Source: an uncultured Verrucomicrobia subdivision 3 bacterium
GTDB taxonomy: Bacteria > Verrucomicrobiota > Verrucomicrobiia > Limisphaerales > UBA11358
Direction of reading: 5' to 3'
DNA: 64,000 nt
Assembly: GCA_903865745.1 (NCBI GenBank)
Contig: CAIPKV010000060.1
Span: forward strand, 1 to 64,000
Shown: piece by piece, positions 5,788 through 47,724 of the stretch
Position numbering within the stretch: position 1 is the first letter of the stretch
How the letters are laid out: each line of letters begins with the position of its first letter
Made by a program: the position numbers and the translations under genes
The notes under the pieces: model-generated
Told to the model about the DNA's origin: nothing
The model's input: the letters and a program-made list of their open reading frames with translations, nothing else
Database searches by the model: none

Positions 5788-7281
5788 ATGAAGCCACCCA
5801 TATCGTCTACGTATACCCAATGGAATCGCCGCAAGTTTCTCAAGACCGCCACGCTAGCTGGTGGTGCGGTCGTGTTTGGCGTGCCCACGCTACTTCGTGG
5901 GCAGAACCTCAATAGCAAATTAAATATCGCTGCCATCGGTGCGGGTGGCAAGGGTGCCAGCGACACGGACCATTGCACCTCCGAAAACATCGTCGCACTG
6001 TGTGACGTGGACACCGTCCGATGTGCCGGGCAGATAAAAAAATACCCATCTGCGAAGTTTTATTCAGATTTTCGGAAAATGTTTGACGAGATGGGCAAGG
6101 GTATTGACGCCGTGACCGTATCTACGCCGGATCACTTCCATGCCATCGCCGAAACGGCCGCGATGCGCCTAGGCAAGCATGTGTATGGCCAGAAGCCGCT
6201 CGCGCAGACAATTTATGAGGCGCGCTATCTTCGTGACCTCGCGCACGAGACTGGCGTTGTCACCCAGATGGGCAATCAGGGCAGTGCAGCGGATGGCTTG
6301 CGCCGGGCGGTGGAATGTGTCCAAGCTGGAATTATCGGCCAGGTGCGCGAAGTTTATGTTTGGACGAATCGTCCAATCTGGCCGCAGGGTATTGGCCGAC
6401 CGGACGGTAGTGATTCGGTTCCTGAAACTTTAGACTGGGATATCTGGCTTGGACCGGCACCCGAGCGGCCTTACAAAAAAGGCGTCTATAATCCATTCAA
6501 CTGGCGTGGTTGGCTAGATTTCGGCACCGGTGCACTGGGTGACATGGCATGCCACACAGTTAATATGCCGTTCCGCGCGCTTGGCTTGGGCTACCCAACG
6601 GAGATTGAGGCCACCGCCATTACCGGCATCAATCAGCAAACTTATCCGCTTGCGTCCAAAATCCGGTTCGAATTTCCAGCTCGAAAGATTTCCGTGCCCG
6701 CTGCCCATAAATCTTTGTTTCACAAGCACGATACGTTGTCGTTGGAACCAGTAACCTTGTGGTGGAACGACGGCGGCCAACCAGTTGTGGATAAACCTGG
6801 TCGGCACGACGGTAGCAACAAGCCGCCGCAGGAAATCACAACCGATATTGCAGAGATGTTTGGTGAGGTTCCCGGTAGCGGCTGCCTACTGATTGGCGAT
6901 AAGGGAAAAATCTTTTCCCCAGATGACTACGGTGAGCAGTTTTTCATTCGGCTCAACGACGAGAGGAGATTTACTCATTACAAAAAACATGAAACCATTA
7001 TATCGGTGCCGCAAAGTCTGCCACGCAACTTGTTCAAGGGCGACAACGACCATCGTCAGCACCTCGAGTGGATCGCTGCAATCAAGGCAGGCAAACTGGA
7101 AATGTGTTACTCGCGTTTCGCCGTCGGCGCACAGCTCACCGAGATCATGTTGCTCGGCTGCGTCGCTTTGCGCGCTGGCCAGAAAATCGAGTGGGACGGT
7201 CCAGGCATGCGCGCCACCAACTGTCCAGCAGCTGCCTCGTATATTAAGCGTGACAACCGTGCAGGCTGGGTGCTTTCGTGA
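5788..7281 (+). CDS. Gfo/Idh/MocA family oxidoreductase with Tat signal
   Basis: Twin-arginine leader RRKFLKTATLAGGAVVFG; IAAIGAGGKGASD nucleotide-binding region; GKHVYGQKPLAQTIYEARYL. Confidence 0.9.
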   Translation: MKPPISSTYTQWNRRKFLKTATLAGGAVVFGVPTLLRGQNLNSKLNIAAIGAGGKGASDTDHCTSENIVALCDVDTVRCAGQIKKYPSAKFYSDFRKMFDEMGKGIDAVTVSTPDHFHAIAETAAMRLGKHVYGQKPLAQTIYEARYLRDLAHETGVVTQMGNQGSAADGLRRAVECVQAGIIGQVREVYVWTNRPIWPQGIGRPDGSDSVPETLDWDIWLGPAPERPYKKGVYNPFNWRGWLDFGTGALGDMACHTVNMPFRALGLGYPTEIEATAITGINQQTYPLASKIRFEFPARKISVPAAHKSLFHKHDTLSLEPVTLWWNDGGQPVVDKPGRHDGSNKPPQEITTDIAEMFGEVPGSGCLLIGDKGKIFSPDDYGEQFFIRLNDERRFTHYKKHETIISVPQSLPRNLFKGDNDHRQHLEWIAAIKAGKLEMCYSRFAVGAQLTEIMLLGCVALRAGQKIEWDGPGMRATNCPAAASYIKRDNRAGWVLS

Positions 7282-10899: not shown

Positions 10900-13800
10900 A
10901 TGACCACAATGCCTGGGACAGTTAGCTCTAGGCGCGGCGGGGAAAATCTGCTAAAAAAATTGTGTGTGAGATCCAAGCAAAATCCCGTCATACCTACGCT
11001 ACCGCGCCTGCTGTCGCTGTTGGCGCTGTTTCCACTGGGCGGGCTGTTGCTCAAGAAAACTTCCCTGACCTATGAACATGCCAATTTGTTCTGGCCACCG
11101 GCTGGCATAGCGCTGGCGGCGTTACTGCTACTCGGATACCGCTTCTGGCTCGGAATTGCTTTAGGTTTTGTCCTATTTGGGCTGGCCGGCGGCATTCCGT
11201 TTGGGTGGTTTCTTTTGGCCACGGCGGTCGGCGGTACACTGGCTGCGACATTTGGCGCGTTTGTGTTGCGGCAGCTATTTCAATTTGAAGATTCGCAGGA
11301 GCGGCTGCGCGACGTGACGGCGTATTTGCTCGTGGCGGGCGTCTTAGTCGCCACCCTTAATGCCGTATCCGATGCCGTTGGTCTAGCATGGATGAATAAG
11401 TTTTCATGGGCGTCATGGTTAACGAATGTATTGGACTGGTGGGTGCCGAACTTGCTGGCGGTGTTGGTGATTACGCCAGTTATTACGTTCTGGACGGTGC
11501 CGTCGTTGTGGCGTTGGAATTTCCGGCTGGCGCTGGAGGCGGCGGTCTGCGCGGTTGGATTGGCTGTCTGCGCGCTGGTATCTTTTTCGGCTTGGTATGT
11601 CTATGGTCTTCACAATTTCCTGCTGGCCTACCTGCCAATACCATTCCTATTGTGGGGAGCGTTCCGGTTCGGTCCACGCGGAGCCTCTGCGGGGACATTG
11701 ATTGTGGCGGTCATGACCTTTTATTTCTTGCTACAAGGGCATGGACTAGCCGATGACAACCCGGCAATGCTTCAATTAGTAGGCATCTACCCCAGCTTTA
11801 TCGCGGCGGCTAACTTACTGCTCGGTGCGTTAGCAACGGAACGACGACGCGCGGAAATCACTCTGGTTGAAAATGAAAAACGGTTACGCACCCTGCTGGC
11901 CGAACAATCGGACATGATTTGCCGGTTTTTGCCGGATGGTCAAATTACCTTTGTGAACCCGGCTTTCTGCGAATTTTACGGCCAGGCAGAAACCCAGCTC
12001 CTCGGTGCGGATTTTTTTCAAAAGTTTCCGGCCGGCGAAGCAGCGACATTACGAGAAAAGCTGGCTTCGCTGACGGAGGAAAATCCGGTCTGGACGTTTG
12101 ACCGCCGTGCTGTGGCTGGCGATGACCATGTGGAATGGCAGCAATGTGACTTACGCCGGTTCGCCCGTGACGGCGAAAACAGTTTTGAATATCAGGCCGT
12201 CATCCAGAATGTCACACCGCGCAAGCAGGCGGAATTGGCGTTGCAAGAGGCCAAGTTCACATTGGAAAAAATGAACCTTCAACTCCGGCTGGCCGCCGAG
12301 GCGGCCAATGCGGCTGCCGAACAGGCGAACCGTGCCAACACTGCCAAGGGCGAATTCCTCGCGAATATGAGTCACGAGATTCGTACGCCGCTGAGCGGCA
12401 TCCTCGGCATGGTTGAGTTGCTTTCTCAGTCGCGCCTCGATTCGCGCCAGAAGGAGTTCGCAGTCGCTGCCGCTGAGAGTGCCAACGCCTTGCTGCACGT
12501 CATCAACGACGTCCTCGACTTCTCCAAGATCGAAGCGGGTAAGATGTCCATGGCGCAGGAAAACTTTTCGCTGCGCGACATTGTGGATGGCGTACTCGAA
12601 AATGCCGCCACCCGCGAGCCGGGCAAAAACATCCATCTCGCCGCCATCATCCGGCGCGACGTACCGCACTTGCTGGTAGGCGATCCTGGTCGGCTTCGGC
12701 AGGTGCTCCTTAACCTCGTTGGCAACGGCATTAAATTCACCGAATCGGGCGAAGTCATCGTTCGCGTTCATCCGCAGTCCCATGCGCACGGTCGCATCAA
12801 GCTGCGGTTTGAAGTCGCCGACACCGGCCTCGGCCTCACGCCGGAGCAAATCTCAAAACTCTTCCGGCCGTTTGTTCAAGCCGACACGTCGTCGTCGCGC
12901 AAGTTCGGCGGCACCGGCCTCGGCCTCGCCATCTCGCGGAAAATCACCGAGCTGATGGGCGGCCGCATCGGCGTCCAAAGCGCTCCCGGCAAGGGCTCGA
13001 CCTTCTGGTTCGAACTGCCTTTCCCCGTGCCGCCGCAGCCGGCCATTGAGCGCAGTTTTCCCGGCCTCGTCTTTGCGCAGGTGCTCATTGCTGCACCCAA
13101 CGCCAGCCTCCGCGAATCGCTCGCCGAACGTCTGCGCGGCTGGGGCGTGGACTGTCGCGAATTCGGGTCCGCAACGGAACTGGTGCGCCATATCAACCAC
13201 GAACTGGGTGCAACCATTTTGCCGGTTGTGCTGTGCGACGATGAGATGCTCGCGCTCGGCGGCGAGCCATTGCGCCAACTGCTGACGTCCGATCAGGGCA
13301 ATATCCAATGCATTTTACTCGCGGGTCCCACGGCGATGCTTAGCGACGAACAGAAAGAATTTGCCCCGTTCGCGAGCGTCCTCCTGAAGCCGGTTCGCGA
13401 ACAACCGCTCTTCGACGCGCTCGTCAATATCGTTGCCGGCAAAAAACCGGAATCCCTGCGCCCCGTCCATCTGCCCGGCGACACCGAAATCATCCGGCGC
13501 GAAGCTGCCGCCAAGACCACGCCCATTTCCAAGCTACGCATTCTGGCCGCCGAGGATCATCCCTTCAACCGCAAGCTCTGGCAGCTCATGCTCGACGGCT
13601 TTGGTGCGCACGCCGATTGGGCTGAGAATGGCCGCGAGGCGGTGGAAAAGTTTTCTGCTGGGCAGTACGACGCCATTCTCATGGATTGCAATATGCCCGA
13701 GCTTGACGGCCACGAGGCCACTGCTGCCATCCGCCATATTGAAGTTGAAAAAAATCTGACACCGCGCGTTCGCATCATCGCCATCACCGCCAACGCCCTC

Positions 13801-14277
13801 GCCGGGGAACGCGAGCGCTGCCTGGCCGCCGGCATGGACGACTACTTGCCTAAGCCATTCACCACCCAGCAGCTTTATCAGTCGCTGCTCGCCGCCGCAC
13901 CGCTGCCGGCTGACAACAAAAGTTTTTTTGATACCGCCCCGTTGGAGTTACTTAGCAGCGAACAAGGCCGCGCCTCGGTGGTCGATATGGCCGGCGATTT
14001 TTTGAATGAATTGCCGGACCGGCTCACCGAAATCCACCGGCTTCACGAGGCTGGTCAATGGTCCGACCTCAAGCGCGCCGCGCACTCGCTGAAAGGATTG
14101 TTTGCCATCTACGGCTTTCGCCCGCTATCGGAAAAGCTGCTGGCCGTCGAAGAAGCCGCTGGTCTGGCGGAAGCGCCCCGGGTGATTGCGGCGTTGGCTG
14201 GCCTCGACCTCGAGGCCGGTAGAGCCGTGACCCAATTGCGCGATTGGTGCCAAAAACAATCGCTTGGCACCACCTGA
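10900..14277 (+). CDS. MASE1-like/PAS hybrid sensor histidine kinase with receiver and HPt domains
   Basis: N-terminal MASE1-like membrane region; GEFLANMSHEIRTPLSGILGM (H box); GLGLAISRKITELMGG (G box); REC domain DAILMDCNMPELDGHEATAAIR; C-terminal HPt LKRAAHSLKGLFAIYG. Confidence 0.92.
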   Translation: MTTMPGTVSSRRGGENLLKKLCVRSKQNPVIPTLPRLLSLLALFPLGGLLLKKTSLTYEHANLFWPPAGIALAALLLLGYRFWLGIALGFVLFGLAGGIPFGWFLLATAVGGTLAATFGAFVLRQLFQFEDSQERLRDVTAYLLVAGVLVATLNAVSDAVGLAWMNKFSWASWLTNVLDWWVPNLLAVLVITPVITFWTVPSLWRWNFRLALEAAVCAVGLAVCALVSFSAWYVYGLHNFLLAYLPIPFLLWGAFRFGPRGASAGTLIVAVMTFYFLLQGHGLADDNPAMLQLVGIYPSFIAAANLLLGALATERRRAEITLVENEKRLRTLLAEQSDMICRFLPDGQITFVNPAFCEFYGQAETQLLGADFFQKFPAGEAATLREKLASLTEENPVWTFDRRAVAGDDHVEWQQCDLRRFARDGENSFEYQAVIQNVTPRKQAELALQEAKFTLEKMNLQLRLAAEAANAAAEQANRANTAKGEFLANMSHEIRTPLSGILGMVELLSQSRLDSRQKEFAVAAAESANALLHVINDVLDFSKIEAGKMSMAQENFSLRDIVDGVLENAATREPGKNIHLAAIIRRDVPHLLVGDPGRLRQVLLNLVGNGIKFTESGEVIVRVHPQSHAHGRIKLRFEVADTGLGLTPEQISKLFRPFVQADTSSSRKFGGTGLGLAISRKITELMGGRIGVQSAPGKGSTFWFELPFPVPPQPAIERSFPGLVFAQVLIAAPNASLRESLAERLRGWGVDCREFGSATELVRHINHELGATILPVVLCDDEMLALGGEPLRQLLTSDQGNIQCILLAGPTAMLSDEQKEFAPFASVLLKPVREQPLFDALVNIVAGKKPESLRPVHLPGDTEIIRREAAAKTTPISKLRILAAEDHPFNRKLWQLMLDGFGAHADWAENGREAVEKFSAGQYDAILMDCNMPELDGHEATAAIRHIEVEKNLTPRVRIIAITANALAGERERCLAAGMDDYLPKPFTTQQLYQSLLAAAPLPADNKSFFDTAPLELLSSEQGRASVVDMAGDFLNELPDRLTEIHRLHEAGQWSDLKRAAHSLKGLFAIYGFRPLSEKLLAVEEAAGLAEAPRVIAALAGLDLEAGRAVTQLRDWCQKQSLGTT

Positions 14278-14303
14278 ACCTCACCGGACTTTTCGTCCCC
14301 CTC

Positions 14304-14555
14304 GGTTGAACGGGAAGCGTCACTTTTCCAGCCGGAACCGCCTTGCTTCCGATTGGAATGGTCATGCTTCCGACAGGAATTGTGACGCTTCCGGTCGGAA
14401 TCATCACCATTCCTGTTGGAATAGCCTCCCTTCCGACCGGAATTGCCATGATTCCGACTGGAATTGCCTCCATTCCGGTCGGAATGGCCTCGCTTCCACC
14501 CGGAAACATGACAATTCCCGCTGGAATGATCACCGTTCCAGCGGGAATAAGTCCT
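14304..14555. repeat. Degenerate 21-bp tandem array A, 12 units, core TTCC-N4-GGAA
   Basis: Units from 14346: cttccgattggaatggtcatg, cttccgacaggaattgtgacg, cttccggtcggaatcatcacc, attcctgttggaatagcctcc, cttccgaccggaattgccatg, attccgactggaattgcctcc, and so on. Strict 21-nt spacing. Confidence 0.95.
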
Positions 14556-14683
14556 AATCTTCTTAAATCCAGCGACTTGCTATTTTGCTGTCATTTCCGC
14601 TGCCGTGACCGACGGGGTAGGTGTGGGTGGATTATCTATTGGCCGTAGTCGTTGGCAACGACGATGTGAAAACCTAACTAAAT

Positions 14684-15583
14684 TCAGCCGCGCGACTTCG
14701 CCGCACCGGCTTTGAGCGCCACCAAATAATCGCACCACACCGCCACGCCATCGCCGCTGCGTGCGGAGAGTTCAAAAATCTTCGCCCGCGGGCTGGCCTG
14801 CCGGATATTTTTCAAAGCCAGTTCCCGATCAAAACCCGCTGCCGCTGCCATATCAGTTTTCGTCACGACGACGACATCGGCAGAATGGAACATCGGTGGA
14901 TATTTAAGCGGTTTGTCTTCGCCTTCCGTCACGGAATGCACGACCACGCGAACGGCTTCGCCCAAATCAAACGCGGCGGGGCAGACGAGGTTGCCGACAT
15001 TCTCGATAATGAGCAAATCAAGTGCGCGCAAGTCCAGTTGCCGCATCGCTTCGGCCACCATCCCGGCCTCCAGATGGCAGAGCGTGCCGGTGGCGATTTG
15101 CACCACGGGCGCGCCGGTGGTGCGAAGCCGCGCGGCATCGTTATCCGTCGCCAAGTCGCCGACAATCACCCCGGCGCGTAAACGGCCTTTTAATTCGTTG
15201 AGCGTTTTCGTCAGCAACGCCGTTTTGCCTGCGCCCGGCGAGGAAACCATATTCAGCACGAGCAAATTCAACGCCTTGAAGACGCCGCGATTTTGTTCCC
15301 CCGCGCGGTCATTGGCGTTCAGGATGCCGGTGTTCAGATTCAAAATCTGATGGGGATGCGCGTGGCTGTGGCCGTGGTCGTGGTCGTGATGATGATGCTC
15401 GTGACCATGTGAATGATCATGTGCGTGGTGGTCGTCACGGGTCGCGCCGGAGCGCAGCGTAGGCGGATGCGCATGCGTATGCACCGTGCCATCCGCGTGC
15501 GTGTGGCTATGCGTGTGGGGTTCAGTGGGCCGGCCATCAATCTGGTAGGGACCGGGTTTGGAGCAGCCGCATTCTTGGCACAT
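14684..15583 (-). CDS. hypB: Hydrogenase nickel incorporation GTPase HypB
   Basis: Long His-rich N-terminus (HTHSHTHADGTVHTHAHP...HEHHHHDHDHGHSHAHPH), SSPGAGKTALL P-loop, VGDLATDNDAARLR, VVVVTKTD. Confidence 0.92.
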   Translation of the reverse strand: MCQECGCSKPGPYQIDGRPTEPHTHSHTHADGTVHTHAHPPTLRSGATRDDHHAHDHSHGHEHHHHDHDHGHSHAHPHQILNLNTGILNANDRAGEQNRGVFKALNLLVLNMVSSPGAGKTALLTKTLNELKGRLRAGVIVGDLATDNDAARLRTTGAPVVQIATGTLCHLEAGMVAEAMRQLDLRALDLLIIENVGNLVCPAAFDLGEAVRVVVHSVTEGEDKPLKYPPMFHSADVVVVTKTDMAAAAGFDRELALKNIRQASPRAKIFELSARSGDGVAVWCDYLVALKAGAAKSRG

Positions 15584-30312: not shown

Positions 30313-30608
30313 GGGGGCAGTAGCTTTTAATATCGGGATGGCTGGAGAAAAAATGGGGGCAGCCCTAAAATAAATGGGGGCAACGTTCGGAAAAATGGGG
30401 GCAAAGGCAAAAAAATTGGGGGCAGTGTCCGGAAAATCGGGGGCGATGATGGAAAAAATGGGGGCAGTCATCCAGAAAAGGGGGGGGCAACGCCAAAAAT
30501 TATGGGGGCAACCTATGAAAATAAGGGGGCGGTGGTTGGCAAATGGGGGGCAGTTGTCCAAAATAAGGGGGCGGCCAGAGAAAATATGGGGAGCAAAAGA
30601 TTTTTTAT
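30313..30608. repeat. Degenerate 21-bp tandem array B, about 14 units, consensus GGGGGCA-N9-AAAAT
   Basis: Units at 30355, 30376, 30397, 30418, 30439, 30460, 30483, 30504, 30525, 30546 and 30567, all starting GGGGGC. Spacing is 21 except one 23-bp unit in a G run. Confidence 0.95.
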
Positions 30609-34190: not shown

Positions 34191-34219
34191 CGGGGTGGCT
34201 GGGAGGTATTTGGACGTCG

Positions 34220-34492
34220 GATGTCCTCGTTCGCTGGATAGCAATCGTCGTCCGCTCGCTAGCGAACGTCAAAATCTGGCAGGATTTTCCCGTTCGCTTG
34301 TTGGAAATCTCAAATACCTGGCTGGAAATCTTCGTTTGCTAGACAGATATCCCCGAAATCCAGTCAGCTAACGCAAAAATCCGACAAGATATCGTCAATT
34401 TCCAACCGGATTTTTACGTTCGCTGATAAGAAATCGTCGTCCGCCGATAGGATTTTGAGGAAATCCGACCGAAAATCTTCGTTATTTGCCAC
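34220..34492. repeat. Degenerate 21-bp tandem array C, 13 units
   Basis: Consecutive 21-mers: gatgtcctcgttcgctggata, gcaatcgtcgtccgctcgcta, gcgaacgtcaaaatctggcag, gattttcccgttcgcttgttg, gaaatctcaaatacctggctg, gaaatcttcgtttgctagaca, gatatccccgaaatccagtca, and so on. Confidence 0.88.
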
Positions 34493-47300: not shown

Positions 47301-47573
47301 GCCGCTGGTGTTGAAAAGTCAACGGCGGAAGGTTCACCGCCAATGGCTAGGGGCACGCCCCCAGCGGCAAGGGGCGTAAACCCTACGGCTACTTTCACGC
47401 CCCCAACCGTCGGTGGCGCATTTATAACCACTTCTTTCCCATACCCAATGGTTGGGTTTGCGTCCGTAACGGCTGCTTTCTCGCCCCTAACCATTACTTT
47501 ACCACCCCCAACGATTGGGTTTGCAACGCCAATGATTACTTTTTTACCCACAACCATCGGGATTGCGCCCTTA
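47301..47573. repeat. Degenerate 21-bp tandem array D, about 13 units
   Basis: Consecutive 21-mers from 47385: acggctactttcacgccccca, accgtcggtggcgcatttata, accacttctttcccataccca, atggttgggtttgcgtccgta, acggctgctttctcgccccta, accattactttaccaccccca, acgattgggtttgcaacgcca, atgattacttttttacccaca, accatcgggattgcgccctta. Confidence 0.92.
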
Positions 47574-47724
47574 TTCGTGAAAAACAGCTCGTTTTCGCCA
47601 TCCGAAGCCTCTTTTTAGTATTTTTGAGGTGAAACCAGGTCATTTTTCAAGGCCGGATCTCCCGTGCTAGCTGGAAAAGCGAACAATCCACTTGCCGCTA
47701 AAGCTACCCGCAGCTAGCTTCGGA

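Follow-up and report, generated by a model that had tools for sequence, protein, structure and literature searches.

What is the role of a row of short dyad-symmetric sites, set at exact 21-bp intervals, in the gap between the convergent 3′ ends of a gene for a hybrid histidine kinase (plus strand, stop ending at 14277) and a gene for HypB (minus strand, stop at 14684)? The first-pass annotation of this locus, here called array A, had described 12 TTCC-N4-GGAA units starting about 30 bp past the kinase stop, readable as open heptad frames on both strands, and had favoured a function at the DNA or RNA level. Its account of the layout is borne out on each of these counts. Within the window (the whole stretch of DNA analysed, 64,000 nucleotides), TTCCNNNNGGAA occurs 12 times, compared with 1.54 +/- 1.34 in shuffled sequences (0 of 100 shuffles reach 12), and 11 of the 12 matches belong to array A, running from 14326 and 14347 to 14536 in exact 21-bp steps with no exception. 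The first unit is degenerate (GTTG-AACG-GGAA, 14305–14316), remains in phase and amounts to a half-site; it lies 28 bp past the kinase stop, and the first full site lies 49 bp past it. Across the 11 full units, 88 of 88 TTCC/GGAA core bases are invariant, whereas the columns of the N4 and the 9-bp linker each hold 2–8 non-consensus bases.

Table 1. Features of array A, its surroundings and other arrays in the window.
Feature	Position	Strand	Remarks
Array A, 12 units with a 21-bp step, of which 11 are perfect TTCC-N4-GGAA (14326–14337 to 14536–14547) and one degenerate (14305–14316)	14305..14547	.	Sequence, pattern search, comparison of copies
9-bp linkers between the sites of array A	14338..14535	.	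Diverge like the outside flank between the two copies
Spacer from array A to gene remnant	14548..14579	.	Homology with the 3′ spacer at the gene-linked C62 locus (L016)
Remnant of the 3′ end of a helical gene, 16 codons and stop (PPTPTPSVTAAEMTAK)	14580..14630	-	Matches PPTPTPPLTVAAAAAK of the intact gene (L016)
Left neighbour, MASE1-PAS hybrid histidine kinase with receiver and Hpt domains	10900..14277	+	Ordinary gene outside the element
Right neighbour, hydrogenase nickel incorporation protein HypB	14684..15583	-	Ordinary gene outside the element
Second strong array, core AAAAATGGGGGCA, non-palindromic, some +/-1 steps	30339..30600	.	Between the end of a lysyl-tRNA-synthetase-like gene and an ABC ATPase-like gene
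Weaker intergenic array of the same class	34218..34490	.	
Array of the class, GGTTGGGTTTGC-like core	47432..47578	.	Same core at C60:64369-64620 (L043 369–620), ~17 kb away on the one contig

When the 3.6-Mb genome was searched with a two-site pattern, exactly one other TTCCN4GGAA array emerged (A′; C62:106621-106863), which lies 3′ of a gene for a helical protein of ~131 amino acids with a proline-rich tail (L016 8897–9292, minus strand). Alignment places array A, the adjoining spacer and 16 codons and the stop of a helical gene end in homology with the C62 locus and, because all three elements align, array A is on this evidence a copy, or a co-descendant, of a gene-linked array, now without its gene. 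In a same-genus ortholog of the helical gene, TTCCN4GGAA sites in 21-bp phase are likewise present just past the stop. When A and A′ are compared in register, they differ at 2 of 88 core positions, 16 of 44 N4 positions, 31 of 99 linker positions and 18 of 74 positions of the outside flank (core against linker, Fisher p = 4e-8; linker against flank, p = 0.39). The comparison therefore shows constraint on the core at the DNA level, with linkers diverging at the rate of the flank, and agrees with the earlier suggestion that the fixed bases are conserved as DNA and not as codons.

Array A is one of a genome-wide class of gene-linked and solo arrays, to which it is assigned by its period of 21, by its possession of the core of a gene-linked copy and by its homology to that copy and the accompanying gene end. 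A lag-identity scan covering 1.07 Mb (29% of the genome) returned 58 period-21 arrays, 50 of which have z >= 7; among the weakest of the 58, some are coding or simple repeats, as are a few that lie at contig ends. The genome-wide total probably runs to hundreds. In 666 kb scanned, 39 arrays were detected at lag 21 and 34 at its multiple 42, with 0–4 at any other lag, and core-to-core steps measured 21 bp 392 times and 42 or 63 bp 35 times, off-phase steps being rare. The arrays comprise about 6–19 sites spaced 21 bp apart (two turns of B-DNA) with linkers of 9–12 bp. Most arrays, or pairs of arrays, have a core of their own—examples are GACGTTTAC, TTGGGGCCAAT, GCATATGC and CCCGCA-N5-TGCGGG—and dyad symmetry is significant (p<=0.05) in 29 of 65 arrays, about half being not significantly palindromic. 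Many arrays are solo, occupying intergenic gaps of any orientation, including divergent promoter gaps. Because array A belongs to this class and duplicates a gene-linked array, it is not simply an operator of its neighbours, and a local operator of the kinase and HypB genes alone is insufficient to account for it. A number of arrays coincide with contig ends, as though they had interrupted the assembly; the core AAAAATGGGGGCA of the second strong array in the window also begins two other contigs (C59:1-302 and C64:1-302; L036 and L128), whose first 302 bp are 97% identical.

The class is found in Limisphaerales and other Verrucomicrobiota, with an array count that is high in the studied genome and low in its congeners; same-genus carriers of the helical gene show few arrays in the rest of the genome. 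In samples of genomes initially scored as devoid of the helical gene, the scan gave 4 weak coding-like matches in 459 kb and 0 in a further 200 kb, a contrast that serves as a rough background, given that two of the genomes sampled as gene-minus (G110 and G084) carry FN3 genes, one with an array. The same two genomes, together with the scarcity of arrays elsewhere in same-genus carriers, speak against the helical gene as the sole genome-wide determinant of arrays.

In a group of Verrucomicrobia, many arrays have as neighbours small protein genes that evolve fast. The helical gene has homologs in 7 of 142 genomes of the order, 13 of 335 of the class and 14 of 49 of the genus, and a 388-genome draw across the phylum matched no additional genome; those relatives that carry names are MAGs from lakes, bogs and soils, assigned to Limisphaerales/Verrucomicrobia subdivision 3 and Spartobacteria. 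An array lies 0–550 bp past the stop in 26 of 33 distinct helical-gene loci and is often followed, 45–81 bp on, by a collagen-like ORF. A different association is seen with a family of 18 proteins of ~205 aa, FN3-like at the C terminus, in the studied genome: an array lies upstream of 16 of the 18 genes (p ~1e-18 by chance at the array density of this genome, a figure that counts paralogs as independent although this is not entirely true). Elsewhere in the order, an array is positioned 5′ of 18 of 28 FN3 loci. The helical protein of the gene-linked copy has no match in Pfam or NCBIfam. Its predicted structure contains three helices, one of 57 residues (pLDDT 80, pTM 0.52), yields no match in a fold search and resembles no known DNA-binding fold. 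A phage origin was considered and set aside, two gene subfamilies having no relatives in IMG/VR. The helical genes of six loci (L023, L028, L053, L064, L069 and L072) have at the 5′ end in-frame leaders ahead of the helical domain, with short repeats (for example SRADFSRADI, ARFNQCCFNQARF or WDDPTKTWDQPGLTW). At L034, an array and a small helical/FN3-type gene are preceded on the 5′ side by a gene (6805–7119) for a PurA-like ssDNA/RNA-binding protein with a proline-rich tail (Pfam PF04845, E 7e-13).

Core similarity has a median of 0.71 between the arrays of orthologs, compared with 0.30 between different subfamilies (99th percentile 0.57). The main exception, L058, has a core like that of subfamily 3, and its protein sequence is likewise similar to that subfamily. 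In subfamily 3, GGTCGTTTnnnAAACGACC-like units are kept in several species, and mixed half-sites are common. The array core is shown to be inherited with the linked gene subfamily. The close FN3 paralogs L191 and L192 have unrelated cores, and for this reason the product of the FN3 genes is an unlikely reader of the core. Within the scanned 29% of the genome, about 10 pairs or sets of arrays have a core in common, which is suggestive of a strict pairing of all arrays; two cores were searched genome-wide, and each belongs to exactly two arrays. In three further pairs (L201/L206, L042/L218 and L134/L125) one member adjoins a helical or FN3 gene. A recent duplicate pair (L206 13367–13555 and L210 2654–2863) shares an invariant 12-bp core, AAGCTCCCGCTT, and its two arrays resemble each other more closely than their flanks do.

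On these grounds we propose, with a confidence that is evenly balanced, that the arrays are duplex-DNA lattices of phased, often dyad-symmetric sites for an inferred protein, tied to small surface- or tail-like gene cassettes, with array A as a solo copy. A sequence-specific protein, probably a dimer, would bind each core as duplex DNA, and the 21-bp phase would place a row of dimers on one face of the DNA, favouring cooperative assembly. A gene-linked lattice beside or between small, fast-evolving cassette genes (helical proline-tailed, FN3-type or collagen-like) might then control or organize their expression, and solo copies such as array A would recruit the same factor in trans. The helical gene product is a candidate for the binding factor of its own array family alone. 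This proposal draws on the 21-bp phase, the constraint on the core between A and A′, the like sites beside a same-genus ortholog, the dyads in 29 of 65 arrays, the linkage to genes, the tracking of subfamilies by cores and the symmetry of the strands; counting against it are the roughly half of arrays that are not significantly palindromic, the unrelated cores of L191 and L192, the helical protein without a known DNA-binding fold and an excess of compensatory double changes that a fixed protein site does not require. A more speculative extension, which we offer tentatively and think rather doubtful, is that of an addressing system, in which a constant 21-bp lattice carries a private site for each cassette gene subfamily, read by a cognate reader, and solo copies put other loci, such as the histidine kinase/HypB interval, under the same address.

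Two alternatives invoke the product of the array and not the DNA itself. That the 21-bp period marks a heptad-repeat protein gene has in its favour the open frames on both strands; we give this next to no credence, as no stop avoidance is seen beyond depletion of TA dinucleotides (TAG 0.66 and GTA 0.69 of the column-shuffled expectation, but TGA 1.05; TAT is likewise scarce at 0.77), the array at 30339–30600 has +/-1 steps and neither heptad ORF (14343–14648 and 14069–14533) has a family match. Codon-level purifying selection, the observation that the first-pass annotation had named as fatal to its own reading, was looked for between A and A′ and not found, non-synonymous differences exceeding synonymous ones in every frame. 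Of the two levels of function that the annotation had left standing, DNA is favoured over RNA. The array might be transcribed with a neighbouring gene to form a row of RNA hairpins in an untranslated region, consistent with gene-linked arrays lying 3′ of the helical genes but 5′ of those of the FN3 or collagen-like type, and array A folds far better than shuffled sequences on either strand (z -9.0 and -11.6), although any palindromic repeat would do so. Yet single changes in gene-oriented arrays are equally divided between GU (116) and AC (113), and after composition control the sense strand is more stable than the antisense in 12 of 29 and 6 of 12 cases, that is, without bias. This equality and the absence of sense-strand bias favour a strand-symmetric role of the arrays at the level of duplex DNA; with solo arrays also present in divergent promoter gaps and no Rfam match, we consider an RNA element very improbable.

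Two readings of the array as DNA are possible besides the protein-bound lattice. The sites could be extruded as hairpins or cruciforms and read by shape during recombination or replication, like integron attC or HUH-transposase sites, thereby moving cassettes. Compensatory double changes across the dyads (106 of 197 compared with 77 expected, sd 6.2) point this way, a signal that is suggestive only, because related units inflate the counts and array A itself is paired in 2 of 9; variants such as GTCTGTTTGCCAAACAGAC and GGTAGTTTCGCAAACTACC within one subfamily, the siting at helical-gene 3′ ends and the scattered copies are also in keeping with it. Single-strand recognition, however, needs no exact helical phase, about half of the arrays lack a significant palindrome, subfamily 3 often has mixed half-sites and Y1 transposases occur in 23 of 25 relatives, array-poor ones included. 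The last observation also led us to reject a Y1/RAYT transposase as the driver, and we regard shape recognition as improbable. Less easily dismissed, if still unlikely in our judgement, is a selfish or neutral repeat, whereby short duplicating or mobile DNA travels with the cassette genes and scatters solo copies, its cores kept uniform by biased amplification and gene conversion and not by function. The many solo copies in gaps of any orientation, the core-sharing pairs (including the recent pair more alike in array than flanks) and the high copy number here relative to congeners are as such a repeat would have them. Unit exchange would nevertheless homogenize linkers too, and those of A and A′ diverge like the flank when the cores do not; moreover, cores persist across species beside orthologous genes, and the constant 21-bp period in unrelated sequences would be left unexplained.

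Several known systems resemble the arrays in part. Plasmid iterons and partition-site arrays (parC, tubC), bound by Rep, ParR or TubR, are direct repeats of ~10–22 bp in helical phase beside a small protein gene, with a conserved core and freer spacer, and array A likewise consists of short direct repeats in helical phase (11 sites, 21-bp steps). The present arrays differ in being chromosomal, at tens per Mb and with a different core each time; no rep or par gene lies beside array A, and the linked protein is without a match in Pfam, NCBIfam or among solved folds. Integron attC sites are single imperfect palindromes of about 57–141 bp at cassette ends, and go with an integrase encoded in the genome; the resemblance lies in a palindrome of variable sequence that follows small cassette genes on their 3′ side, whereas the arrays are rows of 21-bp units that also occur 5′ of FN3 genes and between housekeeping genes. 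In type III toxin–antitoxin arrays (ToxIN), the repeats act as RNA; these share with our arrays tandem repeats of family-specific sequence by a small gene, but the latter have no sense-strand RNA signal, are commonly gene-less and are linked to a protein without a ToxN-like match. CRISPR arrays, in which the repeats are near-identical and the unique spacers longer, similarly alternate a constant core with variable stretches, but the linkers here are only 9–12 bp (9 bp in array A) and no cas genes adjoin array A. The genome has a separate type II CRISPR–Cas9d locus (L038 5900–12680), which has its own ordinary CRISPR array and adjoins an FN3-linked 21-bp array. REP/BIME elements and their RAYT proteins offer a further likeness, as extragenic palindromes of high copy number, regular spacing and linkage to a protein gene, although REPs form one sequence family with GTAG/CGTC tags (PMC2817692, PMC8266576, PMC3733652). 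The arrays share a period and not a sequence, the units of array A have no invariant GTAG or CGTC and the distribution of Y1 transposases is not that of the arrays.

The open-access literature searched contained papers on REP, CRISPR and tandem repeats in general but none that describes a bacterial DNA element of this type, and an earlier description elsewhere is possible. What would be new is the element class, defined by constant period, private cores and gene linkage, and not the putative binding mechanism. One fixed geometry combined with a subfamily-specific site in most arrays is unlike iterons, REP, attC or CRISPR, and predicts either many co-evolving protein–site pairs or some unusual process, acting on the DNA, by which 21-bp lattices arise and are maintained; array A and its C62 partner provide a minimal pair for testing either prediction. 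The class would also explain heptad-repeat ORFs like the two in array A, likely to be annotated as proteins by gene-finding programs. In the 9-bp linkers of arrays from this genome, ATGAC/TGACA is ~5-fold over its frequency in the genome, in many arrays with different cores.
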